Source: Miscanthus floridulus
Lineage: Eukaryota > Streptophyta > Magnoliopsida > Poales > Poaceae
Assembly: GCF_019320115.1 (NCBI RefSeq)
Contig: NC_089587.1
Span: 83,325,603-83,389,602 of the forward strand
Length of the DNA stretch: 64,000 bases
Reading direction: 5' to 3'
Under the pieces are notes generated by a model. That model was not told the DNA's origin. It was given only the letters and a program-made list of their open reading frames with translations, and did no database searches. Positions 21,217 through 51,708 of the stretch are shown here, piece by piece. The translations under genes and the position numbers were made by a program. Each line of letters starts with the position of its first letter. The stretch's first letter is position 1.

Positions 21217-22377
21217 TCAAACATGGGCGCCAAGAGAGCAAGCTCCGCCGTCGCACTGCTCCACGGCCTTGCCGTCGTCGCCGGCGAACTTGGCACCCTT
21301 GGCTGGCGCGTCGGCATCACCGCGCCGTGCGGAGCCCCACACTGGCAGCCTCGCGGAGAAGGTGCGCGCCAGGAGGGACATATTGGGCCACTGGCCGGAG
21401 TTGCCGAGCCGGACGCTCCTTCCAGCGCGGCGCGTGGTCGTCCCGTCACCATCACCACCCGTCTGGACGCTCGCAGACCGCCGAAGGTTGCCCGCCGCGA
21501 CGGCTTCCCGGAGAAGGTGGTCGGGCAGCCTCAGCGTGTAGCGCTCCGAGTCCGAGGTGGAACTGGAAGAAGGCGAGTGCGACGGCGCGACGAGCGAGTG
21601 CCCCGTGGTGTGCGAGCGCGGGAACTGCGAGGGGCGCCGGCCCGACTTGCTTCGCAGCGCGCGCTTCACGCTGCCAATCCGCATCAGCTCGGCGGTCTCC
21701 TCCCTCCTGACCCTCTGGTCCTCTGTCTCTGTCTCCCCGGAAGCGGCAGCGGCAGCGGCGTCGGCTTGGTCCGGCGGCGCTACAGGGACGACAGGCGGGA
21801 TGACTTCCGTGGCCGGAACAGCAGCCAACGCGGCGGGGTCGAGGACGGCGCGGCAGACGGGGCACGTGACGTGCGACGCGAGCCAGGCGTCGATGCAGTC
21901 GGTGTGGAACGCGTGGGCGCACCTGGGCAGGAGCCGGAGCGTGTCGTCGTCGTCGAACTCGGTGAGGCAGACGGCGCACTCGAGCGCAGCGCCATTGCCT
22001 GCCTCCTTATGCGCCCTGACGTCGGCGTAGGCCATGGTCGGGAAGGAGTCGAGCACGGCCCGGTCGAGGCCGCGCATCCTCCTGGACGCGTAGGCGATCC
22101 CGGTCCCGACCCGCCCCAGCCCCACAGGGTACTCGTCGTCGTCGTCGGGCCCGCCAAGCGGGGGGCCCGCGCATCGGCGGAGGTAGATGGAGAAGAAGCC
22201 GAGCAGGAAGAAGGTGGTGACGAGCACGACCATGACGATCGCCATGGACGGGTTGAAGTTCTTGGGGTTAAAGTAGTCCGGCCCTTTGCCCGGCTGCGCC
22301 GTCACGGAGTCCACGGCGGCGCCGGCGAGAGCCACCGCGGCGAGAAGGAGGAGACGGCGGTCATTGATCGGGCCCAT
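21217..22377 (-). CDS. ATL-family RING-H2 E3 ubiquitin ligase, 386 aa
   Basis: Single-exon gene, typical of ATL ligases. Residues 1-27 form a signal peptide ending TAQ, and residues 44-66 a membrane segment ([20 protein letters not shown]). The GLD motif is at 103-105. The RING-H2 finger has C134, C137, C153, H155, H158, C161, C172 and C175 with canonical spacing and the diagnostic W before the last cysteines. The C terminus keeps [10 protein letters not shown] and [12 protein letters not shown], seen in ATL6/ATL31-type members, and the length fits them. The family transfers ubiquitin from E2 enzymes to targets at membranes, often in defence or carbon/nitrogen responses. The start is chosen at 22377 because the signal peptide begins there. 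The frame stays open 166 codons upstream but without any domain. Confidence 0.93.
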
Positions 22378-22561
22378 GTAGCTAGCTATCTTTCTGGGGG
22401 CCTGAGCGGAGGTTGTGGGGGTGAGCAGTGGCCTCTGTCCTCTCGTCTCCTTTTTCCGGTGGGAGGGAGTATTAATGGAGAGTGGAGTGGAGAGCGACCG
22501 CGGGACTGCGACGACGGAAGGGAAACGGATAAAGGCCCCAGGGCGAAACACGATTTTGTAT

Positions 22562-22575
22562 TTGTATATATATTT
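22562..22575 (-). promoter_or_regulatory. Probable TATA box of the ATL gene
   Basis: An alternating TATATATA stretch (minus-strand AAATATATATACAAA) lies about 190 bp upstream of the ATL start. It implies a leader of roughly 150 bases. Assigned by position only. Confidence 0.5.
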
Positions 22576-22589
22576 ATTTAAGGAAATGG

Positions 22590-23953
22590 AAATCCGCGCG
22601 ACGAGAAAAAAAGGAAGACGACGTTTCTGCACGTACGCCCGCGTGCGGGCTTTCGCTCGTAAATTTCTAACTAGAACAGTAGATCGTTTCAACCCAGCCG
22701 AACAGGCTGCTCGGTGGAGACGGCGGGGCGCTCGGGTCGGCATCCACCTTCCAGACTGCCGTGCCTCGGGGGTTGGTGTGGGTCGATTGAGCCCAGCGCA
22801 TGCAAGCCCGTTCTGCTTCTGAGCTTTCGCCTCTGCGTGGGCAGCAAACGCAGCGTTGTAGTATTGGTGTTGCATCCCACTCAGTGCCAGGGTCGGTCAA
22901 ACCCGACAGCTCGGACGACCGGAGGAGGGGGGCGTTTTTTCCTCTCCTCCGCCGGGAACGGGACCGGAAGAGGTCAGTGAGACAGCGACTGACACAGAGA
23001 GGTCAATCAATTATACGAGATGGCCCCGACGCCGTTCGTTGGGTTGGGTGTGTGAAATTAAAAGTGGATAACGGCCGAAAAGTCGTCCTTGCATGCAGTT
23101 GCAGGAGCAGGAAAACCTGCCGTTGCACGTACGTACGTGGCGGGCACCGTGATGGCAACGGTGACTAGCTAGTACGAGCGTGAGTGGAGTGAATGAACGC
23201 GCGGTGGATGCCATCACCATCACGTACGAACGTAAAGACAAGTGGACACCTACCACTTGCATTATATGTATTGCTGTGTACAACACTCCTAAATAGAATC
23301 ATCTCGGCTCTGCGACTAAAAGTGCAGGCAGGCAGGAAATTAGATTGCCGTATCCGCACGTAACAACTAAGCCAAATTAAAGGCAGGCAGGAAATGCATT
23401 GGAGCGTGGATATAAGATAAAACAGAAGAGGGTTAATATCGATTGCGATTGCGGTGGAATCTCTCTCGTTGCCACGGTCTCTGTCCACGCTTTACTGTCA
23501 GGAGTACATTTTATTAGATAGATATATAAGCGGGAGGGAGGGATAATATCGGAGTTCACGGTCAATGGACCTCGTCCTTTTTTTCTTTCACCAAAGCAAA
23601 GGCTGCGTTCCCTTGATTTTTTTTCTGAGGGTCAAATCAAATCAAATGTTCTGCACCAAGAATACAGAAAAGAAAACTTAGGAAACCAATAAATTGCATG
23701 AGCCTTTTTCTCTCTGATAAACCAATAAATAAATTACTCAAATTTGGCGAGGCGCTCTATCAGGCTATCTTGCTTTTTATGTAGGCATAATCACAGACTA
23801 TCTATCACCTGCAGGCATGTTTCTCCTATATCATGTCACTACGGACAAAATTAAAGGTGCATGAGGCATCCTACCACAAGCACCATGTAATCTGGGCTAG
23901 CTTGCGAGTGATGAACTACTACTACTACTACCTGCAACGGAAACAAAAGGATC
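22590..23953. other. Intergenic region, no gene recognised
   Basis: Distal upstream sequence of the ATL gene. It is GC-rich to about 23,000, then mixed. Short open frames have no domains. A TATA-like GATATATAAGC near 23521 on + has no gene downstream, because the LINE begins 440 bp further on. Confidence 0.5.
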
Positions 23954-27697: not shown

Positions 27698-27708
27698 ATG
27701 AAAGGTGT
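27698..27708 (+). pseudogene. First codons of LINE ORF2, cut off by element B
   Basis: ATGAAAGGTGT, 54 bp after the end of ORF1, is the ORF2 start. The last bases GGTGT form the left copy of the element B target duplication. The frame resumes at 51714 with FWNCRGLR, the expected start of the endonuclease. Confidence 0.8.
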
Positions 27709-27828
27709 TGTCGGGGACCAATACTAGGGTATCCGAAGAGGTGGAGCTAATGACCATCAATATTGATTCATCCAAGCAGTCAAGAGCGCGACTACAGCTC
27801 TAATCGACCCTCTGGGGCGGACTCTGCC

Positions 27829-28460
27829 TCGCCCGACCCTGAGGCCACGGGCTCCACCTCGCCCGACACTTGGGTTTGGGCTCCGCCTCGACCGACCGCA
27901 AGGCCGCGGACTCCGCCTCGCCCGACCCTTGGGTTTGCGCTCCGCCTTGCCTAACCCTAGGGCCATGGGCTCGGCCTCACCCGACCCTGAGGCCACAGAC
28001 TCCGCCTCACCCGACTCTGAGGCCACAGACTCCGCCTCACCCGACCCTTGGGATTCCGCTCCGCCTTGCCCGACCCTGAGGCCACGGGCTCTGCCTCGCC
28101 CGACCCTTGGGTTTGGGCTCTACCTCGACCGACCATAAGGCCACGGGCTCTGCCTCATCCAATCCTTAGGTTCGTGTTGTGCCTCGGCCGGCCTCTGGGG
28201 GAGGGCTCCGCCTCGCCCGACCCCAGGGCTGCGGGCTTCACCTCACCCGACCTCAAAGCCGCGGACTCTGCCTCGCTCGACCCTTGGGTTTGCGCTTCGC
28301 CTCGCCCGACCCCAAGGCCATCGGCTCCGCCTCGCCCGACCTATGGAGGCAGGCTCCGCCTCGCCCGACACCGAGGCCGCATGCTCCACCTCGCCCAGAC
28401 TCTGGGGGTGAGCTCTGCCTCGCCTGACCCCGAGGTCATGGGTTCTGTCTCGCCCGACGG
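27829..28460. repeat. GC-rich minisatellite in the 5' LTR of element B
   Basis: About twenty imperfect units of roughly 30-40 bp built on CTCCGCCTCGCCCGACCC plus variable GAGGCCACGGG-like spacers. Several frames stay open on both strands simply because the unit lacks stop codons. This is not a protein-coding gene. Confidence 0.9.
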
Positions 28461-28887
28461 AGACCCATACCGCCGCCAACCACTCTAGGTCCAAGTGTAT
28501 GGGCCTGGATCAAAACTCTGATGCCAGGGAAGAGACCGGCACGCCCCGTTATAACTCGTGGCCATGATGGGCCATACCTGGGGATTCACATCAGGAACAG
28601 CGTGGGGCATACCGGTGCTGTTCTGCCTAACCCTTGTATGAACACTGACAGGCGCGTCAGTTCACCACGACGTTCGTCGGGACAGAGTGGACTGCCATGA
28701 CAGGCAGACGACGCCTGTGTATGGCGCCAGTGACCGGACAGGACCACGACGTGGAGCTATCCTATTGACATCTACAAGGTCAGCGGGACCCGCATGAAGG
28801 AGAAGAAGGACCCAGCGATCCTGAAGGCTTTCGTCTCTCTCTTGTCCTTCTCTTTCCCTCCGTTGTAACCCATGCTTTCCCTTGGCC

Positions 28888-28895
28888 TATAAAAG
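28888..28895 (+). promoter_or_regulatory. TATA box of the 5' LTR of element B
   Basis: TATAAAAG in the context CTTGGCCTATAAAAGGG, about 350 bp before the LTR end. The position and context fit an LTR promoter driving the gag remnant. Confidence 0.7.
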
Positions 28896-29243
28896 GGAAA
28901 GCAGAGCGTCCATTAGGGGCATCGACTCATCGGACCAACGATCCATCGATTCAAGCTAGATCCGAACAACCCCATCGAACCCCCAAGCACACGGCTGAGC
29001 AGCAACCCAGCTCTCGGCACCCATTCGTTCTTTCCACCAGAGACTTCGGATCTGTCCCTCTCTCACCCATTTGTAACCCATACTATGAACTTTTAGTGCT
29101 AGTAACATGAGCAACAGCGATGAACTAGACGTAGGGACATTCTGCTCGAACCAGTATAAACCTCATGTCCTCTAAGCACACCATCCGAGCTAAATGTACA
29201 ATATTAGAAATTTACTCATTGGTGGTTACTCGAAACACCGATA

Positions 29244-36331: not shown

Positions 36332-39300
36332 TGTAACAGAACTGACCAATTATACAAAATTAAGTAAGAAAATCATCCACCAGAGCAGACGATTTAGCAA
36401 ACTTAAGCCCGTATAACCCGGTAGTCCGTGAAATCATGAAGGATTTCAAACCAACTTCCATTCCAGCCAAGATCGTAATAAGTTTAGCGGTCACCATCAC
36501 ATATTACATAAAAGTTTGCATCTCAGATACATTAGAGTTTAAACATAGTTATTACAAAACAAGTTCGAATAAAAGTAGCAGAAGCCATTTGTTCAAACCA
36601 CACACACTCACACGGAGTTCAAATATAGTGCCAGCGAATGATCATCTCCAACAAAAGCATCAGACGAGACATAAGGAATGACCATGCCCATGGTCCTAAG
36701 CATCACCCATCGCAGGATAATGGCAGTTGATATAGTAGCCGTAATACATCTGCCCATCTACAACAAGTGGGAATAAAACCCTGAGTACGAGAAGGTACTC
36801 AGCTAGACTTACCCGACATAACCGAAAATAAGTGACACCAAGGATTATGAAGGCTTTATAGTAGGGTAGCTGACTCATTTGCAAAGAAAGCATTTTTAGC
36901 ATTCCAAGAACCTTTCTAAAAACATTATTGCCAAGTTAATTAATTATAACTTGTCGACTAGATTTGCACCTATACTAGAGCAAACATGTGATTAAGCAGA
37001 TAATGATAACCAATGATCATTAAACAACTTTCATAATGTCATATTCATTATAACTATCCAAGTGTTCCATTAACATTACTACGATGAAGTCACTCAAGTC
37101 AAGTGCTCACTATCTAGGAGCGATGGCGATTCGAATCGATTCCTAACCAGCTGGTGATTTATTCCTTACACAAACCTCACTCACCCGCTAAAGTGAGATA
37201 TTGATCACCGAGTCAACTATCCAGGAATCTCGAGTTTGCTAGGAACCACATGTACCCGGGGGCCGACCGACTGCACTTTGGTCTTATCATCTCGCCCCCA
37301 TGTCCTACCACACCTGCTCCGGCACAGTGCGCTGTGGGCAATCTACTTGGCCCGAATAATCTCCCAACTTCCCGAATAATGTAAGGCATGCGTTCAACAT
37401 GACTCGAGGCCCAACAACGGTTGGTCCTTAATCGACACAGATGGAAAGCACTACAGTCCAAAACTCTGTAAGTCTCTGTCCGGTCTCAACTTCATTTAAC
37501 ACTTAGTTATACCATGACTTCATAGTCATCCAAGCAGATCTAGGTAACCACCTATAGCTCGCAGGTGACAGGAAATCATCTGACTTCTACCGGTCTGAGC
37601 CAGCTAAGCATTGACTCGACTACGGATACCAGGGTAACAAGGATATAGTATAACAAAGGTAGACAAGGTATAATGCAGCAACGGTTGCAAACAACTTCTG
37701 AACATAATGCATCAATTAAAGTAAAGTATTTAATTAAAAATTGCAAACTGGGAGAAAATGCTCCGGGGCTTGCCTCTCTCGAAGGAGCTCGGGCGGTGAT
37801 CGGGGCACTCTGGAAGTTCCTCAACGTCCTCCTCATCGGCTTCGGGCACTTCCTGCAGCTGCACCTCGAACTGCTCCTCGGGCTCCTCGGGTATGACGAC
37901 TGGGTTCTCGGTTTGCGATCCTGTATGATGCAATGTGCGTAAGCGCCTATGCAATCGGTGCATCGAATGAGACGAATACAATGGATATGTTTGAATGCAA
38001 GGTAGTCAACATCATCCAAGAACATATACTACAAGCACATGTCATCTATTGCATTCTCTTCTACTACTAATATGCTAAATCAACACATCTTATTAAATGC
38101 TTCAAAGATACACCAAAGCTTTACTAATTTCTTAATCACACATTCAGCAACACTTGATTAAACCCTAATTAATAATAGGTTTGAATAGTAACATCTATTT
38201 TTATTGCTTAGAAAAATCTTAGAAAATTACCATAGCACAGTACTACCCTAAGTAGTCTACCATCAGATTTTCATGGTATTTGAATGGGGGGATTAGCCTA
38301 CACAAAAATAACAAGCTATGGCATGATTATGAACATGAAAATACTTTGTACTGTGAAAAGTGTCAAACAATAGAGTTAGCATTTTTCCTATGACCTTCAT
38401 AGCATACAATCACTGTACAAAAATTATCACATGCATGTTTTATACAAAGTTTACTCTCTAGCTAAAATAACAAAAATCAGCCATTAAAGGCACTTGAACT
38501 ACACCTCAAAATTTTTCTTTAGTACATGCATGACACATATTTTTCCTAGGAAGTACATTACATAAGAAGATCAATAAACTTGGAATCATATTTTTCTGAA
38601 GCCTATAGGTTTTTCTATATATTTTTCAAGTTATCAGCAATATCCATGATTAAATAAAGTTCTACAGAAAAGTATCTAAAAATGACATGCAATAATTTTC
38701 CCAAGTAGATCTGGTGATAAGGAACCTAGCAAAAATTTATTTCAATAGATTTGGAGCAAATTTGAGTATCCAAACATTTTCTAAATCATTTCTCTTTTCA
38801 AATAATAAAGAAAAAATGAAAATAAACATCCTATTGCTACTGGGCCGGCCCGTGGGAATCAGCCGGCCCATGGCCACACTTGGCCTACGCGGCCCGAGTG
38901 AAGGGAAAGAGCGGCAGCCTAGCAGGGGCTTCGGCCCATGGCCTCTTGGCCCAGCTCGGCCGAGGCGAAAGCCATGCCGGCGCCGAGACGTCGTGGCAGC
39001 ACGGCTCGGCCAACGGGGCCGGCGGCCATTACCGACCATGCCAAGGCAAACGAGCAAGCACATGCGGTTCGTGAGGAGCTGGCGAATGCGGGCAGGTTGC
39101 TAGGCAGGGTGGAGAAGGGGAGGAAGGGAGAGTTCCACGGTGGCCGAGCACGGCGGCGCCATGGCCGACGTCGGCGAGTCACGAGAACACACTACCTGGG
39201 CTCAAAAGATGGCACAATAGCGAGCACCAAGTGCCGGAGAGTGAGGCAGAGCTGCTAGTGCTCGATTGCTGGCCGTGGTGGAGGAGGGGCGGTGGATTTG

Positions 39301-40199
39301 CCCGGTGGGTGCGGTGGCGCTCGGTGGCGAGCTCGCTGCGCGCGGGAGGAGAAGCGAGCATGTGAGAGCGAGAGAGCGGGCGGGATGGAGTGGAGAGGGG
39401 CGCAGCGTGGTCGGCAGGTGTAGGCAGGCGCATGGGAGCGGACACAGGCCGGCTGCAACGCGCGGCGGCGTCGACGGCGCATGGCCGCCACACGGCGGGC
39501 GTGCTCTGCCGTGGTCGAGACACGGCACGGTGTGTCAGCAAGCGGGCGAGCGCGGAGGCAGGCCAGGCGCGGTGCTGGGCTAGGCTGGGCCAAGGTGAGG
39601 CGCGTAGTGTGGTGGGAGGCTTGCTGGGCCGACTTCGGTCGTGGGCCGGGAAGCGGAGCGGCGGCCTGTTAAGCGAAAATGAAGAATTTTTCTTTTTATT
39701 TCTCAAATATACAGAATTAAATTCCTATTTTTGAGCCATTTAAAAGCATTTTCACAAATTGGTGTAAAAATGAAATTTGTTCCATTTTTCAATATCTACA
39801 ACTTTGATTTTATGACCAAAGCCAAATTCTTGATAGATTTTGAATTATAAAATTAAAGTAAATTTTAACTCAAAACCCTAATTTTGGAGAATTATTTTTA
39901 AAAGCAAAATTTGGCAATAATTTAAATACAAACCTTGCTCCAAAAATTTTGCTAAACAATTCTAGATGATTCACAATCATAACCAAACAAGTTCTACTAA
40001 CCTAGCACGCATAATCAGGGCAAAACCACTCTAAACAAGTGTATGCAACATTTATGTTTCACGAACATGTTTCGTATGTTTCGAAGCAGTGTTTCAGTTG
40101 TTATTAACATGATTAGGCATGTATGATTAGGATGCTTGATGATGCATGATATGCATGATTTGTAGTGCCTAAATGCTGGCATAACACCAGGGTGTTACA
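36332..40199 (-). repeat. 3' LTR of the Tekay element
   Basis: 3868 bp, full-length form. It contains an AT-rich segment (38014-38655) missing from the partner, and a GC-rich block (38840-39670) with many open but domainless frames. Confidence 0.93.
37730..37981 (-). other. Acidic open frame inside the Tekay 3' LTR
   Basis: An 83-codon frame containing VVIPEEPEEQFEVQ and EADEEDVEELPECP. The 5' LTR has the matching segment (48290-48490) with two stops. It may be a leader peptide or chance. Duplicate LTR copies come from one template, so agreement is not evidence of selection. Confidence 0.3.
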
Positions 40200-40209
40200 G
40201 CCCTTCCCC
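40200..40209 (-). other. Polypurine tract of the Tekay element
   Basis: Minus strand GGGGAAGGGC directly before the 3' LTR. It primes plus-strand DNA synthesis in this family. Confidence 0.8.
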
Positions 40210-40234
40210 TTATAAAAATCTCATCCCAAGATTT

Positions 40235-41579
40235 GGGTTACGAACCATTTGTTATAAAAATCTTCATAAGCTTTTTGTAGATATTCTCCCGTTTCCCAAG
40301 TTGCATCTCCCTCATCATGATGATCCCACTATATCTTGTATATTTTCACCACACTATTCTGAGTAGCACGTTCTTTAGTGTCTAACACACAGACTGGTTG
40401 TTCACGGTACACCAAATCTGATTTGAGTTGGATACCTCGAGGTTCTATTCTTTTCTCCGGAACACGCAAACATTTCTTGAGATGTGATACATGGAAAACT
40501 AGGAAAACGGTACTCATTGTCTTAGGTAACTCTAACTTGTAGGCTACCGGACCTCTTTGTTCCAGGATCTTGTATGGTCCTACGAATCTCGCGGCAAGCT
40601 TTCTTCAGACTCCGAACCTTTTCTTCTTCATTAGCGTGACCTTTAGATAAACATAGTCACCAACTTCAAACACAAGGGGTCTCCTTCTTCTGTCTACATA
40701 ACTTTTTTATCGTGATTGGGCCGCCTTCATATTCTGCTGAATAATATGAACTTTCTTCTCGGCTTCTTCTACAAAGTCAATGCTATAATACCTTCTATCT
40801 CTAGGCTCGACCCAATTCAATGGTGTTCTACATTTTCTGCCATATAAAGCTTCGAAGGGAGCCATCTTGATGCTTTCTTGATAACTATTATTATAAGAAC
40901 ACTTAGCTAATGGTAACCATGACTTCCATGATCCCTTAGAAGACAATACGCAGGCTCTTAACATATCCTCCAAAACAGCATTCACTTGTTCAGTCTAACC
41001 ATCTGTCTGAGGATGATAAGCGGTACTGCGAATCAAACTAGTTCCTAAGCCTTTGTGTAAATGTTCCCAAAAGTGAGCCATGAACTGGGGCCCTCTATCA
41101 GATACTATGGTCTTTGGTATACCATGCAACCTCACAATTTCTGCGATATACTTCTCGGCATATTGAGGTGGTCGATAAGTTGTCTTGACAGGTAGGAAAT
41201 GAGCGGTCTTAGTAAGACGATCCACAATTACCCAAATCAAATCATGTCCTTTTTTAGTAGTGGGCAAACCCGAGATAAAATCCATACTGATATCGTCCCA
41301 CTTCCAACTAGGGACTGACAAGGGTTGCAACATGCCGGCAGGTTTCATATGAATAGCTTTCACTCTACAACATGTGTCACATCTGGCAACATATGCTGTA
41401 ATTTCTTTCTTCATTTTGGTCCACCGATAATGAGACCTTAGTTCTTGATACATCTTACTACTTTTGGGATGGATAGATAGCTTAGAAAGGTGAGCTTCAT
41501 CCATGAGTTTATTCCTAAGCTCTCGATCCTTGAGAACCACAAGACGGTTGTCAAACCACAACACGCCCTGTTCATCCAC
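40235..41579 (-). pseudogene. Integrase with C-terminal chromodomain of the Tekay element (decayed)
   Basis: The HHCC zinc finger (HLSKLSIH then CDTC) starts near 41500. The catalytic core has DISMDFISGLP, VSDRGPQFM and a Glu in TEQVNAVLEDML, with a stop just before the last. The GPY-like C-terminal domain includes FHVSHLKKC near 40490. It ends in a chromodomain near 40345-40235: KIYKI, a stop, then WDHHDEGDATWETGEYLQKA with the conserved aromatic and acidic positions. In chromoviruses this module directs integration, in some cases by reading methylated H3. The target choice here is inferred, not shown. Confidence 0.88.
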
Positions 41580-41645
41580 TTTAAAGTGCTGAGACGACTT
41601 TTCTTTTATTTTCTCTTTGAAGTGGAATATTCCCTTGTCGGTTTT

Positions 41646-43098
41646 CTAGCCTTCTATTATCTTACTCTCCAAAGAGCAACTAATCTGAATACTATGTAAC
41701 ACAACAGGATGCATCAGATCGAACCCATCTTCAAGTAATGGCCGCACATTCAAGTAATATGACTTTCTGCTCAAAGCATCTACCACTACATTAGCTTTTC
41801 CAGGATGATATTGCACATTCAAGATGTAATCCTTGATCAATTCCAATCATCTACGTTGTCTCATGTTCAGCTCTGGTTGGGTAAAGATGTACTTAAGACT
41901 CTTGTGATCTGTGAAAATGTAGCACACATTACCAAGTAGATAATGTCTCCAAATTTTTAGGGCATGCACAACTGCAGCAAGTTCAAGATCATGTGTTGGA
42001 TAGTTGACCTCGTGCTTCCTCAATTTACGTGAGGCATAGGCAATGACTCTCCTTTCTTGCATAAGAACATAGCCCAATCTAGTCTTCGATGCGTCGCAAA
42101 ACACATCAAATGGTTTCTTGATATCTGGTTGTGCTAGAATAGGAGCAGTGGTCAACAATTTCCGCAAAGTGTGGAAAGCTACTTCACACTCCTCTGTCCA
42201 CACAAACTTATGATCCTTCTGTAGCAGACTTGTCATCGGTTTGGCAATCTTCGAGAAGTCTGGTATAAAGTGACGGTAATAACTGGCTAGTCCTAAGAAA
42301 CTTCTAATCTCAGGAACTGTGGTCGGTGCTTTCCAATTCATAACCTCTTGCACCGTACTTGGATCGACTGAAACTCCATTTTCTGACAGAATGTGATCAA
42401 GGAAAGGAACTTTCTTCAACTAGAATTTGCATTTGCTAAACTTAGCATACAGTTGATGATCCCTAAGTCTGGTCAAGACAATTCTCAGATGCTCTTCATG
42501 ATCCTTCTTGTTCTCGGAGTACACCAGAATGTCATCGATGAACACCACCATAAACTTATCCAATTCTGGCATGAAAACTGTATTCATCAAAAACATAAAG
42601 TATGCAGGAGCATTTGTCAAGCCAAAGGACATGACAAGATACTCATACAACCCGTATCTGGTGGAAAATGCAGTTTTTGGAATATCCTGTGGCCTAATCT
42701 TGATCTGATGATAACCGGATCTCAAATCTATTTTTGAGAACACCTTGGCCTTGGCTAACTGGTCAAACAGAACATCAATATGGGGCAAGGGATATTTATT
42801 CTTGATGGTTATAGCGTTGAGTGGCCTGTAATCTACGCACATTCTCAACGTGCCCTCTTTCTTCTTCTTCACAAACAAGGTGGGACATCCCCATTCAGAT
42901 TTGCTTGACCGAATAAACCCCTTTTTTTGATAAATCTTCTAATTGCTTCTTCAGCTCAGCTAGTTCATCTAGAGGCATCCGATAGGGTCTCCTTGAAATT
43001 GGAGCTGTTCCGAGGATTAACTCAATTCCAAACTCAATCTCCCTATCCGGTGGAAGACCAGGTAGCTCATCCGAGAATACATCCGGAAACTCACACAC
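41646..43098 (-). pseudogene. Reverse transcriptase and RNase H of the Tekay element (decayed)
   Basis: The linker [19 protein letters not shown] opens at 43098. A frameshift near 42900 precedes RT proper, which has [34 protein letters not shown] and [14 protein letters not shown]. The active site FIDD is encoded at 42531-42542. RNase H follows from 42419 to 41646, with [36 protein letters not shown] and [10 protein letters not shown]. Single stops fall near 42420 and 41847. Apart from these the domains keep all catalytic motifs I can see. Confidence 0.92.
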
Positions 43099-43161
43099 TA
43101 CCAGAATCTGATGAATAGGAATGACTGTCGTAGCACATGTAACACTTATAAGGTCTGTTCT

Positions 43162-44718
43162 TCAAGGAAATGGTACTTGAAAAGTACCCTCACCCAGGGG
43201 ATCCTTAAGGGTAAGTACTCGACTTCTAGTATCTATGACTGCTCCCCAATCCTTCATCCAATTCATCCCTATAATGACATCCAAAACTAGTCTAGGCATA
43301 ACTATCAAGTTCACTCGGAACTTCCTGCTACCTAATTCAAGGGTTGCCCCTCGAACCATCCGGTTGGTCAAAACATCAGCCCCTGCTGAACTTATACGGT
43401 AACCATAACCCAATTCTGTGCAAAGTTGTTCATGTTTCTGTGCAAATGCTTGACTCATAAAAGAATGTGATGATCCAGAATCAAATAGAACAACTGTAGG
43501 GTTTTTGTTGACAGGAAACTTACCAGCAGTGACGGGCTCTCCCTCAGGAATTTTATCCATAGTCGTACTATGCACCCTAGCATTATAAGTCTGCTGCTTC
43601 TTCTTGGGCGGATACGGACAAAACCTCGAGAAGTGGCCGGGTTGATCACAGTTATAGCAGGGTCCCCTCACTGTCCCAGCAGATCCCATAGCTCCCTTGG
43701 AACTGCATTGTACCGTAGTTGCGGCTACCTTATTGGGTTGTACTGCCATCTTGTAAGGCTTCTGGGGTCCACGGAAATTCTGACTTCTCTGCCGAGGTGA
43801 CCTGAACCTCGCGCCAGGTGCTAATGGGCGATATGGAGGATGACCTCCCGTAGGTGCTCTAGCTTGGGACAGACCACCTTCAAGGGCTCTCTTGCGTGTC
43901 TTGGCTGCGGTGCTGGCGTTGTTATTCTTCTCCAGCTTCAGACAGTCGCTGATGAAGTCATTAAATCTAACACGGTTGTTGGTACCAATATGCTTCATCA
44001 TTTTTGGATTGAGTCCCCTCTTGAAACTGGCTATTCTCTTAGCATCTGTGTCAACCATGTCGGGAGCATAACGACACAAGTTGTTGAAGGCATGCAGATA
44101 TTGCGTCACAGTCTTGGTGCCCTAATTTAACGCCAAGAACTCTCCCAACTTCATCTCGGTTAGCCCGGGTGGAATATAAACTCCACAGAAGGCCTCAGCA
44201 AACTCTCTCCACAAAATCTAAGCATTTGGAGGGAAGGTGGTGCGATGGTGCTTCCACCACATTCCCGCTGGTCCTTGCAACTAAAGTGCAGCATACTCCA
44301 TTTTCAACACCTCAGTCATCCTCAACACACGGAATTTATCTTCCATAGTATTGATCCATTCCTCAGCATCGAGTGGCTCTATTGCTTCCTTGAATACTGG
44401 TGGCCTGGTGTCCATAAAATCTTTGAAGCTGCTATATTGGTTCACCCCAAGGCCACCACCCTGATTATTACCATGTTGAACGTTGTTGGCGATGGTACGC
44501 AGAAAATCCTCCATGTTCTTCTGGGATTGTTCTGCGTTGCGCTGACTCCCAAGCAACTATGCGAGGAACATCTCGGGGGTAAACAGGGGAGGAGGTGGCA
44601 AATGCGGTTCATGGGGAGGTTCATTGTTGTTGCCGTGGTTTCCACCACCACCACCGGTCCCCGCACCGTTAGCACCGGTCTCAGCGGCCTCATATGTGGT
44701 TCGGCGAGTATTTGTCAT
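43162..44718 (-). pseudogene. Gag and protease of the Tekay element (decayed)
   Basis: Starts MTNTRRTTYEAAETGANGAG at 44718. The capsid domain spans about 44500-44000 (EPLDAEEWINTMEDKFRVL, QYLHAFNNLCRYAPDM). The zinc knuckle CYNCDQPGHFSRFC is near 43610-43655. The protease motif VLFDSGSSHSFMS keeps the catalytic D-S-G near 43450-43490, followed by LDVIIGMNWM, the second protease motif. At least four in-frame stops lie in the first 600 bp, while the protease half is open. The frame continues to a stop at 43162 and on into the RT linker. Confidence 0.9.
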
Positions 44719-45082
44719 CTGCATATTTTAGCAACAAGTAATGATTGAGTGAAGCTGTAATAATTGCGAGTGAAGGAAAAATTATGTCGTACTGAATTTA
44801 CTAGAGAGGATAAATTCATACAATAAAACAGAGGCACAACAATCGCATCCCAATTAAAACAACATCACTTAATCAAATTACTTCAACAGCAAACATCGCG
44901 TCCATACAACCAAATTGCCAGCATACATACACTGGACTTTTATACGTTCAGATATCGCATTCCTAATCAAGTTCCAACCACATGCCAAGTCTCATAAGTT
45001 CGAAGCAAAACACATTAGGTTACATGCCAACAAAAGAAAGGTCATCGCGACAGGACCTAGATACTAGCGCAAGGCAACTAGC
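44719..45082. other. Spacer between orf0 and gag of the Tekay element
   Basis: AT-rich, about 360 bp, no open frame of note. GCAG directly precedes the gag ATG on the minus strand, so a splice acceptor there is possible. Confidence 0.4.
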
Positions 45083-46075
45083 CTACTCCTTGGGGCCATC
45101 GTCGGGATTGGAGACGTCACCATTGCCCCTAGGTGAAACTACAGGCTCATCCTCGTTGTCGTCGTTGTCGATGTCCATGCCAGCGGCGTCTAGTGGAGCA
45201 TATGGGCCAACCCCATTGTAGAGCACGTGAAACTCCTCATGCAGGTTGCTGTTGTATTCCTCTAGCTCATCGACCCTCTGTAGTAGAAGGTCCCTCTCGT
45301 CCTAGGCTTCATTCCTTTCCTGAACCAACTGTCCAATCATGCGGTCTGCATTGTTGTTGGCTTGAGTCAATGTATGCACCCACTGCATAGCTCTATCACC
45401 TCTCTCCACTGCCTGGTCTCACTGTAAGTTCATATCAGCCAACTGCTCCTACAAACTAGCTATAGCATGTGCCTGTCTCTTCTTCTGCTTTCTCCCCTTG
45501 AGCTTATCCTGACCACGCAAGCCAGTCAAAGTCTAGTAGGTACTCTCGAGACCCTCATACGCTCTGATGGCGGCGAACATAGCACTCATAGAATGGTTGT
45601 CGCTAGCCTGTCCCTCAGCTGGACCTCTAACCAAGGCGCTTCACTAAGGCTAAACCCAAATGGCATCACGAGGATCATCCCTAGGAAAAGTGCCAGCTAG
45701 AGCTGCTGCAAGCTCACTGGGAAATCTGCTTATAATATCCCTAATGACATGGAAGGCTGCTCCCTCTACACCCTCAGCGGGAGTGCGACCCTCAAACTCC
45801 AAGTGCTAACCATCCTAATCTGGAGCATCACCGAGAGCAGGGACCATGATCTCTACCACTGCAAGTCCATCCTCTGCTAACTGGCTCTCATTCCAAGAGT
45901 ACACCGGTTCTTGACCCTCTAGGTACCCCACATCATGGACCACTCTCCAAAGCAAGGTCGGCATGCCAAACTCGTTCAAGAAGGTGTCCATGGTGCGGTG
46001 CTCCCTCAAGGCCAATGGACGTCGAGGTGCTCTTCCTTCGGTGGACTTATGGGCGGTCTGCTTCATGCAGGCCAT
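45083..46075 (-). pseudogene. orf0 of the Tekay element with a histone H3-tail-like N terminus
   Basis: A 331-codon frame without any length change, between the primer-binding site and gag. It is interrupted by nine stops (codons 87, 90, 142, 144, 145, 181, 209, 219, 258), seven of them TAG. After MACM it reads KQTAHKSTEGRAPRRPLA. Aligned to the H3 tail, 15 of 22 residues including Met are identical, with K4, K9, S10, T11 and A15-P16-R17 kept and K14 and K18 as arginine. Residues 193-200 (KGRKQKKR) resemble a nuclear localisation signal. About 205-290 is coiled-coil-like, and 301-310 is acidic (DIDNDDNEDE). TTTTGCTACAG directly precedes the ATG and could be a splice acceptor. An additional frame before gag has been reported in some rice gypsy elements. 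The role is unknown. Confidence 0.8.
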
Positions 46076-46847
46076 CTGTAGCAAAAGTTCTTTTATTACC
46101 CTAGGGAAACATATTTTAGGTGATACAACTTTTATCAAAATGAGATAATCAATTTATAAGGGGAGGAATGCATGACATGAATGAAATGCACAAGTAATAT
46201 GATGTATGTACGTGCCGTACGTTCTCACAAACTTATGAAATGAATAATTTCTAACGACGAATTCGGTGGCATACAAACGATCTCTCAAATACGTAGCTAA
46301 TACGTTTTACATGATAGCATTGTTATGTACCTGTAGAAGATTCATTTTAGCCCAATTCCCAATGAATGCATACAAGCAGTAAATTTTATCTACACGCTCT
46401 ACACGAATCCCCAGATACGTGTACAACGGTAGTAACTACCCGAACCATCGTCCTATTGACGGCATCGCCTCAATAGACGGAATACCCACACATGAGATAC
46501 CTTTGTAAAACATGCGTAGAACATGTAATTACTCCAGCATCATATAAGCATTCACCCTAGATCGGCGGTGTATCCGATCATGCTCTCACAACTCACACTT
46601 ACCGAGGCGTAGAAGCAATTGATCCATACATTACCACTCAAACAAGTGGCACTCATACAATAGCACGCCATATGAGCGATGAAAGAGAAATATGATGCAA
46701 GAACCCCAAGTCAGTACTTAATTAAGCCACCTGAAGTCCTTAACTGGGCATAAAGGATACGATCACTGGCACACTTTATAGTTTGAAAATCATGTTTTCC
46801 AAATGCCTTTTTGTTTTAAATACACTTGTGAACAGTAACGCGCTAAA
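46076..46847. other. Leader between primer-binding site and orf0
   Basis: AT-rich, no coding potential seen. It probably holds the 5' leader and perhaps an intron ending at 46076. No donor was identified with confidence. Confidence 0.4.
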
Positions 46848-46863
46848 CCATGCTCTGATACCA
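46848..46863 (-). other. Primer-binding site for initiator tRNA-Met
   Basis: Minus strand TGGTATCAGAGCATGG, two bases inside the 5' LTR. TGGTATCAGAGC is the standard plant retrotransposon site complementary to the 3' end of initiator tRNA-Met. Confidence 0.9.
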
Positions 46864-46865
46864 GC

Positions 46866-49800
46866 TGTAACAGAACCAACCAATTATACGAAATTAAGTA
46901 AGAAAATCATCCGCCAGAGCAGACGATTTAGCAAACTTAGGCCCGTATAACCCGGTAGTCCGTGAAATCATGAAGGATTTCAAACCAACTTCCATTTTAG
47001 CCAAGATCATAATAAGTTTAGCGGTCACCATCACATATTACATAAAAGTTTGCATCTCAGATACATCAGAGTTTAAACATAGTTATTACAAAACAAGTTC
47101 GAATAAAAGTAGTGGAAGCCATTTGTTCAAACCACACACACTCATACGGAGTTCAAATATAGTGCCAGCGAATGATCATCTCCAACAAAAGCATCAGACG
47201 AGACGTAAGGAATGACCATGCCCATGGTCCTAAGCATCACCCATCGTAGGATAAAGGTAGTTGATACAGTAGCCGTAATACATCTGCTCATCTGCAACAA
47301 GTGGGAATAAAACCCTGAGTACAAGAAGGTACTTAGCTAGACTTACCCGACATAACTGAAAATAAGTGACACCAAGGATTATGAAGGCTTTATAGTAGGG
47401 TAGCTGACTCATTTGCAAAAAAAAGCATTTTTAGCATTCCAAGAACCTTTCTAAAAACATTATTGCCAAGTTAATTAATTATAACTTGTCGACTAGATTT
47501 GCACCTATACTAGAGCAAACATGTGATTAAGCAGATAATGATAACCAATGATCATTAAACAACTTTCATAATGTCATATTCATTATAACTATCCAAGTGT
47601 TCCATTAACATTACTACGATGAAGTCACTCAAGTCAAGTGCTCACTATCTAGGAGCGATGGCGATTCGAATCGATTCCTAACCAGCTGGTGATTTATTCC
47701 TTACACAAACCTCACTCACCCGCTAAAGTGAGATATTGATCACTGAGTCAACTATCCAGGAATCTCAAGTTTGCTAGGAACCACATGTACCCGGGGGCTG
47801 ACCGACTGCACTTTAGTCTTATCATCTCGCCCCCATGTCCTACCACACCTGCTCCGGCACAGTGCGCTGTGGGCAATCTACTCGGCCCGAATAATCTCCC
47901 AGCTTCCCGAATAATGTAAGGCATGCATTCAACATGACTCGAGGCCCAACAACGGTCGGTCCTTAATCGACACAGATGGAAAGCACTACAGTTCAAAACT
48001 CTATAAGTCTCCGTCCGGTCTCAACTTCATTTAACACTTAGTTATACCATGACTTCATAGTCATCCAAGCAGATCCAGGTAACCACCTATAGCTCGCAGG
48101 TGACAGGAAATCACCCGACTTCTACCGGTCTAAGCCAGCTAAGCATTGACTCGACTACGGATACCAGGGTAACAAGGATATAGTATAACAAAGGTAGACA
48201 AGGTATAATGCAGCAACGGTTGCAAACAACTCCTAAACATAATGCATCAATTAAAGTAAAGTATTTAATTAAAAATTGCAAACCGGGAGAAAATGCTTCG
48301 AGGCTTGCCTCTCTCGAAGGAGCTCGGGCGATGATCGGGGCACTCTAGAAGTTCCTCAATGTCCTCCTCGTCAGCTTCGGGCACTTCCTGCGGCTGCACC
48401 TCAAACTGCTCCTCGGGCTCCTCGGGTATGACGACTGGGTTCTCGGTTTACGATCCTGTATGATGCAATGTGCGTAAGTGCCTATGCAATCGGTGCATCG
48501 AATGAGACGAATACAATGGATATGTTTGAATGCAAGGTAGTCAACATCAAGTTCTACAGAAAAGTATCTCAAAAATGACATGCAATAATTTTCCCAAGTA
48601 GATCTAGTGATAAGGAACCTAGCAAAAAAATATTTCAATAGATTTGGAGCAAATTTGAGTATCCAAACATTTTCCAAATCATTTCTCTTTTCAAATAATA
48701 AAGAAAAACTAGAAATAAACATCCTATTGCTACTGGGCCGGCCCGTGGGAATTAGCCGGCCCACGGCCACACTTGGCCTGCGCAGCCCAAGCGAAGGGAA
48801 AGAGCGGCGGCCTAGCAGGGGCTTCGGCCCATGGCCTCTTGGCCCAGCTCGGCCGAGGTGAAAGCCATGCTGGCGCCGAGACGTCGCGGCGGCGCGGCTC
48901 GGCCAACGGGGCCGGCGGCCATTACCGGTCGTGCTAGGGCAAACGAGCGAGCGCATGCGGTTCGTGAGGAGCTGGTGAATGTGGGCAGGTAGCTAGGCAG
49001 GGTGGAGAAAGGGAGGAAGGGAGAGTTCCACGATGGCCGAGCATGGCGGCGCCATGGCCGACGTCGGTGAGTCACGAGAATGCGCTACCTGGGCTCAAAA
49101 GATGGCACAATCACGAGCACCAAGTGTCGGAGAGCAAGGTGGAGCTGCTGGCGCTCGATTGCTGGCCATGGTGGAGGAGGGGCGGTGGATTTGCCCGGTG
49201 GGTGCGGTGGCGCTCGGTGGCGAGCTTGCTGCGCGCGGGAGGAGAAGCGAGCACGGGAGAGTGAGAGAGCGGGCGGGATGGAGTGGAGAGGGGCGCAGCG
49301 CTGTCGGTAGGTGTAGGCAGGCGCGTGGGAGCGGACACAGGCCGGCTATGATGCACGGCGGCATCGACGACGCATGGCTGCCACGTGGCGGGCGTGCTCT
49401 ACCGTGGTCGGGACGCGGCGTGGCGCGTCAGCGAGCGAGCGAGCGCGGAGGCAGGCCAGGCATGGCACTGGGCTAGGCTGGGCCAAGGGGAGGCGCGCGG
49501 CGCGGCGGGAGGCTTGCTGGGCCGGCTTTGGCCGTGGGCCGGGAAGCGGAGCGGCGGCCTGTTAAGCGAAAATGAAGAATTTTTCTTTTTATTTCTCAAA
49601 TATACAGAATTAAATTCCCATTTTTGAGCCATTTAAAAGCATTTTCACAAATTGGTGTAAAAATGAAATTTGTTCCATTTTTCAATATCTACAACTTTGA
49701 TTTTATGACTAAAGCCAAATTCTTGATAGATTTTGAATTATAAAATTAAAGTAAATTTTAACTCAAAACCCTAATTTTGGAGAATTATTTTTAAAAGCAA

Positions 49801-50092
49801 AATTTGGCAATAATTTAAATACAAACCTTGCTCCAAAAATTTTGCTAAACAATTCTAGATGATTCACAATCATAACCAAACAAGTTCTACTAACCTAGCA
49901 AGCATAATCAGGGCAAAACCACTTTAAACAAGTGTATGCAATATTTACGTTTCACGAACATGTTTCATATGTTTTAAAGCAGTGTTTCAGTTGTTATTTA
50001 CATGATTAGGCATGTATGATTAGGATGCTTGATGATGCATGATATGCATGATTTACAGTGCCTAAATGCTGGCATAACACCGGGGTGTTACA
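46866..50092 (-). repeat. 5' LTR of the Tekay element
   Basis: 3227 bp. It lacks about 641 bp present in the other LTR; the join is in GTAGTCAACATCAAGTTCTA near 48548. The rest aligns throughout. Confidence 0.93.
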
Positions 50093-50097: not shown

Positions 50098-50179
50098 AGA
50101 AGGCCAAGGCCCTCAGAGTCCTTCCATTTAGAAAAGCCTCCGAAGGAGTATTCTACTCCTTTGTAGGCTCAGGGGCTAT
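50098..50179 (+). other. Remaining 3' end of element B with polypurine tract
   Basis: A short segment separated from 36331 by the Tekay element. It ends in GGCTCAGGGGCTAT, the purine tract next to the 3' LTR. Confidence 0.65.
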
Positions 50180-50279
50180 TGTCAGTGACAAATACTAGGG
50201 TACCCAAAGAGGAAGAGCTAATGACCATCAATATTGATTCATCCGAGCAGTCAAGAGTGTGACTATAGCTCCAACCGAC

Positions 50280-50930
50280 CCTCTAGGGGTGGACTCCGCC
50301 TCGCCCAACCTCCGGGGGTGGACTCTGCCTTGCTCGACCCTGAGGCCACGGGCTTCGCCTCACTTGACCCCGAGGCCACAGACTCTGCCTTGCCTAACCC
50401 TTGGGTTGCGCTCCGCCTCGCCTGACCACGAGGCCATGAGCTCTGCCTCGCCTGACCCTTGGGTTTGGGCTCCGCCTCGACCGACCGCAAGGCTGTGGGC
50501 TCCGCCTCACCCCACCCTTGGGTTTGTGCTCCACCTTGCCCAACCCTAGAGCCATAGGCTCCACCTCACCTGATCCTGAGACCGCAGGCTTTGCCTCGCC
50601 TGACCCTTGGGTTTGCGCTCTACCTCACCTGAAATTTGGGGGAAGCCTCCACCTCGCCCAACCCTAGGGCCACGGGCTCCACCTCGCTTGACCCTGAGGC
50701 CATGGCCTCCGCCTCGACCGACCCCAAGGCCACAGACTCTACCTCGCCCGACCCTTGGGTTTACACTCCACCTCACCCGACCCCAAGGTCATGGGCTCCA
50801 CCTCGCCTGACCTATGGGGGCGGGCTCCACCTCAACCAACAGTGAGGCCATAGGCTCCGCCCCACCCGACCTTTAGGGGCAGGCCCTGCCTCGCCTGACC
50901 TTGAGGTCATGGGTTCTGTCTCGCCCGATG
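50280..50930. repeat. GC-rich minisatellite in the 3' LTR of element B
   Basis: Counterpart of the array in the other LTR, with the same core but many more C-to-T type changes (GCCTTGCTCGACCC, CACTTGACCC). Unit order is broadly kept, as expected from one parental copy. Confidence 0.88.
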
Positions 50931-51354
50931 GAGACCCATACCGCCGCCAACCACTCTAGGTCCAAGCGTATGGGCCTAGGTCAAAACTTTGATGTCAGGG
51001 AAGAGACCGGCACGCCCTAATATAACATGCGCCCAAGATGGGCCATACCTAGGGATTCACATCAGGAACATCATTGGGCATATCGATGTTGTTCTGCCTA
51101 CCCCCCGTACGAACACTGACAAGCGTGTCAGTTTACCACGACGTCCGCTGGGATGGAGTGGAGCGCCATGGCCGGCAAATGATGCCAACGCATGGTGCTA
51201 ATGATGGACAGGACCACGACATGGAGCTATCCTATTGACATCTACAGGGTCGGTGGGACCCGCATGAAGGAGAAGGACCCGACAATCTAGAAGGCTTTTG
51301 ACTCTCTCTCGTCCTTCTCTTTCCCTCTGCTGTAACCCGTGCTTTCCCTTGGCC

Positions 51355-51362
51355 TATAAAAG
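51355..51362 (+). promoter_or_regulatory. TATA box of the 3' LTR of element B
   Basis: TATAAAAG in the same context as in the other LTR. It points into the LINE ORF2 remnant and could drive readthrough transcripts there. Confidence 0.65.
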
Positions 51363-51708
51363 GGAAAGTACGGCATCCCATTAGGGGCATCGACTCATCT
51401 GACCAATGATCCATCGATTCAAGCCAGATCCAAACAAACCCATCGAACCCCCATGCACATGGCTGAGCAGCAACTGAGCTCTCAGAACCCATTTGTTCTT
51501 TCCACTAGAGACTTAGGACATGTCCCTCTCTCGCCTGTTTGTAACCCCTACTATAAACTTTCAGTGCTAGTAACACGAGCAGCGACGAACTGGATGTAGG
51601 GATATTCTGCCCGAACCAGTATAAACCTCGTATCCTCTAAGCACACCATCCGAGCCAGACGCGTAATATTAGAAATTTACTCGTTGGTGGTTACTTGAAA
51701 CACCGACA

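Follow-up and report, generated by a model that had tools for sequence, protein, structure and literature searches.

The stretch of Miscanthus floridulus DNA analysed here (64,000 nucleotides; hereafter the window) contains a complete Ty3/gypsy LTR retrotransposon, flanked by a 5-base duplication, CTTAT, as read from its ends and flanks. An additional open reading frame, ORF0, lies between the 5' LTR and gag, and it is the first 22 codons of this frame that concern us. The features of the element, all on the minus strand, are as follows.

36332 to 50092, minus strand: complete Ty3/gypsy LTR retrotransposon, 13.76 kb (LTR pair by self-BLAST)
46866 to 50092, minus strand: 5' LTR, 3.2 kb (self-BLAST)
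46852 to 46863, minus strand: primer binding site TGGTATCAGAGC, adjoining the 5' LTR (sequence read)
46076 to 46085, minus strand: splice-acceptor-like sequence TTTGCTACAG, abutting the ORF0 ATG (putative function)
45086 to 46075, minus strand: ORF0 (329 codons long in the three sister copies without interruption)
46010 to 46075, minus strand: ORF0 codons 1-22, resembling the histone H3 tail (translation, PDB search and sister-copy count)
43162 to 44718, minus strand: gag with zinc knuckle, then aspartic protease (Pfam and reading)
40995 to 42878, minus strand: reverse transcriptase, RNase H and integrase (Pfam matches)
40221 to 40700, minus strand: integrase C-terminal SH3-like domain (Pfam SH3_Tf2-1, E = 7.4e-19), then a chromodomain-like stretch
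36332 to 40199, minus strand: 3' LTR (self-BLAST)

The order of the Pfam domains (protease, reverse transcriptase, RNase H, integrase) is that of gypsy elements, and the primer site TGGTATCAGAGC is presumably of the initiator-Met tRNA type. The two LTRs differ by a K80 distance of 0.049 (140 transitions versus 11 transversions over 3225 sites), which corresponds to an age of about 1.9 My at the substitution rate of 1.3e-8 used for dating. About 640 bases at 38015-38653 were found by self-BLAST only in the 3' LTR and are likely a later insertion. ORF0 is a separate open reading frame upstream of gag-pol (46075-45086), in a frame different from that of gag-protease, and in the window it is interrupted by several stops. 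The probable start of gag, identified by eye, is the ATG at 44718. Both this ATG and the ORF0 start at 46075 lie directly after a splice-acceptor-like CAG, so that the two frames may be expressed from differently spliced RNAs; the last seven bases before the ORF0 ATG are GCTACAG in 34 of 40 copies of the family, and the CAG is kept in 35 of the 40. Elsewhere in the window, two stretches rich in GC-rich tandem repeats of approximately 30, 59 and 89 bases (27708-29241 and 50179-51706) are 80% similar, the second of them starting 87 bases upstream of the 5' LTR, and a 552-codon frame with a RING-H2 finger (21217-22875, minus strand) is likely a host gene.

Codons 1-22 of the window ORF0 (46075-46010, minus strand) translate to MACMKQTAHKSTEGRAPRRPLA, which shares 15 of 22 residues with histone H3 and has arginine at H3 positions 14 and 18 in place of lysine. 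Re-reading gave the same translation, count and substitutions as the original prediction. The likeness begins exactly at the ORF0 start codon, as in H3, and spans H3 residues 1-21. It had also been proposed that the changes at H3 positions 2, 3, 8 and 12 were C-to-T or G-to-A steps and that the parent had been closer to H3, and the other copies in the genome bear out both points. The window residues at these four positions recur, by the same steps, in 11, 5, 10 and 3 of 39 sister copies, while the H3 residue is present in 27, 34, 27 and 30 of them. The extra differences of the window copy from H3 thus look like C>T/G>A decay.

These sister copies were drawn from a 2.68-Gb genome in which at least 40 copies of the ORF0 start region are present; 40 were scored out of 1406 candidates, and the sister copies are this set minus the window copy. 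The set was chosen for likeness over the tail because the 221-base query included the tail. All 39, anchored on the ATG, start in frame with Met-Ala and an H3-like tail (40 of 40 with the window copy), so the tail is not peculiar to one decayed copy. Matches to H3 number 19 of 22 residues in 12 copies, 18 in 14, 17 in 9, 16 in two, 15 in one and 13 in one copy whose reading frame shifts after about codon 12. The 12 best copies are identical to H3 through residue 13; the run identical to H3 at the start codon is MARTKQTARKSTGG. Residues Q5, K9 and S10 are kept in every sister copy and K4 in 38, and each of Q5, T6, A7, S10, T11 and G13 is kept in 38 or 39. The differences from H3 typical of the family are R14 (38/39), R18 (34/39) and P19 (36/39). 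When the peptide that occurs exactly in 10 of the 39 sister copies was compared with the PDB, histone H3 came first (E = 4.5e-8 over 22 residues), and H3 peptide chains of 20-26 residues filled the top matches (best 60 of 137). ORF0 is a non-histone protein that starts with an H3 tail sequence. ORF0 is open over 329 codons in three of the 39 sister copies, and one such 329-residue protein has no Pfam domain above the cut-off. Capture of a whole histone gene is ruled out by the lack of a histone Pfam match in this protein, and to that extent the earlier view that ORF0 is not a captured histone gene stands; capture of the 5' end of an H3 gene alone may nevertheless have occurred. The second half of the protein has weak Pfam matches to coiled-coil families, from which a coiled-coil-like character may be surmised, and its C-terminal stretch is acidic.

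Relatives of ORF0 were sought among protein databases. Searches over 5.8 billion proteins gave 13 matches, 12 matches from 26 candidates (the length range of this search did not extend down to canonical H3, which is too short) and the best 120 of 172. Relatives were found in JGI, ENA and other metagenome assemblies, presumably as plant DNA within these assemblies, and none was confirmed in viral contigs or in bacterial or archaeal genomes. Most of the 123 database proteins compared start downstream of the tail and hence are uninformative on it. Eight contain the FLxxFG motif that comes after the tail. Of them, P0029, P0089 and P0117 begin at a point past the tail but before the motif, and all five that reach this end (P0014, P0015, P0086, P0114 and P0121) carry the tail. 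The expectation that many copies would keep an H3-like N terminus is therefore upheld in the sister copies and in the database proteins alike, and neither relatives devoid of H3-like residues nor a match unique to the window was encountered in these two sets. Some relatives are nearer to H3 than is the window's own family: P0086 and P0121 read MARTKQTARKSTGGRAPRRQLA and match H3 at 20 of 22 residues, differing only by K14R and K18R, while P0015 matches at 19 and P0014 and P0114 at 18. K14R is common to all five tails, position 18 is arginine in three and histidine in two, and Q19 of H3 is kept in all but P0014, a protein of the same kind as that of the window. After its tail, P0121 continues with PRERRNT, which may echo the TKAARKS of H3, with K23 again arginine, although this comparison was made by eye. 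The tail of P0015 sits at an internal position, 64 residues into the predicted protein, and the frame of ORF0 does not continue far beyond it, indicating a decayed or mispredicted copy. A fungal (Xylaria) F-box protein of 301 residues, P0017, whose F-box was confirmed by Pfam, was matched at E = 0.39 only; it has an H3-like start, MARTKQTARQSTGGRAPRRP (16 of 22 residues), and is perhaps an independent H3-tail mimic.

The tail is not a general feature of ORF0 proteins. In a sample of twenty 10-kb stretches (200 kb) from arbitrary mid-chromosome places of the same genome, we found two distant ORF0s, L056 and L066, with 31-40% identity over the longer matches; homology was seen to these two and to the metagenome proteins. 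Both have the ATGGCC start and the TFLxxFG motif of the window family, and both are followed by the same protease piece (at L056 also by reverse transcriptase and RNase H pieces). Neither has an H3-like stretch at its N terminus, and only 11 residues precede TFLxxFG in L056 and L066 versus 30 in the window family. As the start and the motif are shared without the tail, gain in one lineage is the simplest reading, and the tail was probably added to an existing ORF0 that already started with Met-Ala. Alternatively, with two tail-less examples to hand, the tail may have been lost in other ORF0 lineages.

It is less clear if the tail has been maintained by selection. The original prediction anticipated purifying selection on the tail while the rest of ORF0 diverged, and on this point the results are weak and mixed. 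In 21 pairs formed from seven tail-bearing sequences, which are not independent and whose p values are uncorrected, conservation was higher in the tail than in the residues after it in 16 (p < 0.05 in 7) and not higher in five, e.g., 17/22 versus 97/115 for P0014 and P0114. For P0086 and P0121, the tail is identical (22/22) and the rest matches at 92/116 (p = 0.01). P0015 matches the six others at 18-20 of 22 tail residues and at 10-12 of the next 19 (p = 0.007-0.05); six of the 7 significant pairs involve this protein, which has a broken frame and only 19 later residues that can be compared. Among the sister copies, the C>T/G>A variants in the tail comprise 13 amino-acid-changing and 5 silent ones, suggesting that these copies decay freely. 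Other tail variants are scarce (one amino-acid changing and no silent), but because silent ones are scarce too, this is no clean sign of selection on the protein. The rate of such non-C>T/G>A variants is 0.0004 in codons 1-22, 0.0015 in codons 23-44, 0.0093 in codons 45-110 and 0.0083 just upstream, and the low variation over codons 1-44 may stem from constraint at the nucleic-acid level, from a common history or from chance. The survival of K4 and K9 in decayed copies says little since both are encoded by AAG, whose G>A change is silent, and drift away from H3 does occur, as P19 in the window's family illustrates. Over codons 23-180, non-C>T/G>A variants present in at least three copies are 2 amino-acid changing versus 11 silent, a ratio consistent with past selection acting on the ORF0 protein. 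We consider selection on the tail itself to be weakly supported.

What might an H3 tail do at the start of a retrotransposon protein? We tentatively favour, at somewhat short of an even chance, the reading that it is a genuine N-terminal copy of H3 residues 1-21, gained in one ORF0 lineage and acting as a decoy or hook in silencing. A more specific form, in which the host's H3 tail was acquired to form the free N-terminal end of a coiled-coil protein and works against silencing as a decoy or hook for H3K4 and H3K9 enzymes, with K14 and K18 changed to arginine, is possible, though we lean against it. Since alanine is the second residue, the initiator Met would be expected to be removed, and the protein would then present the free A1-R2-T3-K4...K9-S10 end that is gripped by enzymes and readers of the H3 tail. 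ORF0 could thereby draw H3-tail binders of the silencing machinery to itself, as a decoy or hook that is soluble or oligomeric, and would favour expression or chromatin handling of the element. Candidate partners are LSD1-like demethylases (LDL), K9 methyltransferases (KYP/CMT3) and PHD readers, with LDL-type enzymes and K9 methyltransferases as the first candidates. Contacts of the methyl type would fit better than those of the acetyl type, because K4 and K9 persist whereas K14 and K18, which are acetylation sites, have become arginine (position 18 sometimes histidine). Many H3 enzymes and readers bind the 1-21 peptide of H3, whose length is common among H3 complexes in the PDB; the first 21 residues of H3 are used in LSD1 assays (PMC6320820), and Arabidopsis LDL2 takes off H3K4me1 downstream of H3K9me2 (PMC13157976). 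We infer the direction of change, the Met removal, the partners and the effect of the tail from sequence.

A somewhat unlikely alternative to such a decoy or hook is that the tail is a relic: the 5' end of an H3 gene was captured, perhaps by template switching at the shared ATGGC, and has been carried, without a histone-like job, simply as the new start of the ORF0 protein. The tail-less ORF0s also start with ATGGCC, and H3 starts with Met-Ala. GC3 in the two copies measured is 0.77 in codons 2-14 versus 0.38 in codons 15-22, as if the original codon style had been partly kept, and the mixed outcome of the conservation tests is what a relic might give. However, in the seven tail-bearing sequences 17-19 of the 21 residues after Met match H3 despite differences of 18-24% elsewhere in ORF0 in the more distant pairs. 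That the resemblance arose by chance or by convergence of a basic N terminus is extremely improbable; it is confined to approximately 21 residues, with no histone domain after them, but neither the identical run MARTKQTARKSTGG at the start codon, nor the E value of the PDB search, nor the closer match of some relatives than of the window family would be expected on this basis.

It is also conceivable, if improbable, that the tail is only a basic disordered signal for nuclear import or for tethering ORF0 to DNA or RNA. H3 tails also act in nuclear import, the tail is strongly basic, and the change of K to R at positions 14 and 18 preserves charge. Charge alone would not keep Q5, T6, A7, S10, T11 and G13 (a weak argument among such close kin), and it does not explain the exact position at the start codon. 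A partner inside the element is, in our view, very improbable: the tail would be bound by the chromodomain of the element's integrase, and ORF0 could bridge the pre-integration complex and chromatin. Group II chromodomains have no identified partner, as two papers state for the type II domains (PMC6317226; PMC12786077). The end of the integrase resembles by eye a group II chromodomain, a domain expected at this place in the Tekay/Del chromovirus clade, but this is a short 35-residue piece with no Pfam chromodomain match, in a region containing a stop. In addition, type II chromodomains are described as lacking parts of the methyl-lysine cage (PMC6317226), and non-grass homologues are described as having the polyprotein without ORF0 (PMC3485330).

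By LTR length, upstream frame and domain order, the window element is Retrosat2/RIRE3-like; elements of this type likewise have LTRs of >3 kb and an extra open reading frame upstream of a Ty3/gypsy gag-pol. Gao et al. described in 2012 an ORF0 in Retrosat2, RIRE3, RIRE8 and FRetro3, with homologues in maize, sorghum and Brachypodium; in the main text, it is presented as divergent, grass specific and absent outside grasses, of unknown origin and function, with enzyme functions proposed from models (PMC3485330). Unlike for the window family, no H3 tail is reported there, and the words histone, mimic, chromodomain and chromatin have zero occurrences in that main text. Nor did we find a report of an H3 tail in a retrotransposon among the matches listed in a search of titles and abstract starts in the open-licence literature, preprints excluded. 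A near-verbatim H3 tail at the start of ORF0 gives a concrete, cheaply testable idea of function for this protein of grass elements, namely that a transposon protein passes itself off as histone H3. If this idea is correct, then retrotransposons silenced by the H3K4/H3K9 machinery would join pathogens as users of histone mimicry, and antibodies against modified forms of the H3 tail could detect ORF0 as well in such plants.

Several known systems offer parallels. SNAG domains are described as hooks for LSD1, and in one proposed way of working ORF0 would likewise catch an H3-tail enzyme by its N terminus. The likeness of SNAG to H3 is loose, whereas the ORF0 tail is near verbatim. The VANC proteins of Arabidopsis VANDAL transposons are described as a case of transposon-encoded anti-silencing, as proposed for ORF0, but they are sequence specific, unlike the proposal for ORF0, and we know of no H3 tail in VANCs. 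The H3 likeness of influenza NS1 covers about four residues. NS1 and other pathogen histone mimics (PMC12937675) share with ORF0 the presence of H3-tail residues in the protein of a parasite, while the likeness in NS1 is C-terminal and that in ORF0 is N-terminal, extends over approximately 21 residues and is found in a retrotransposon.
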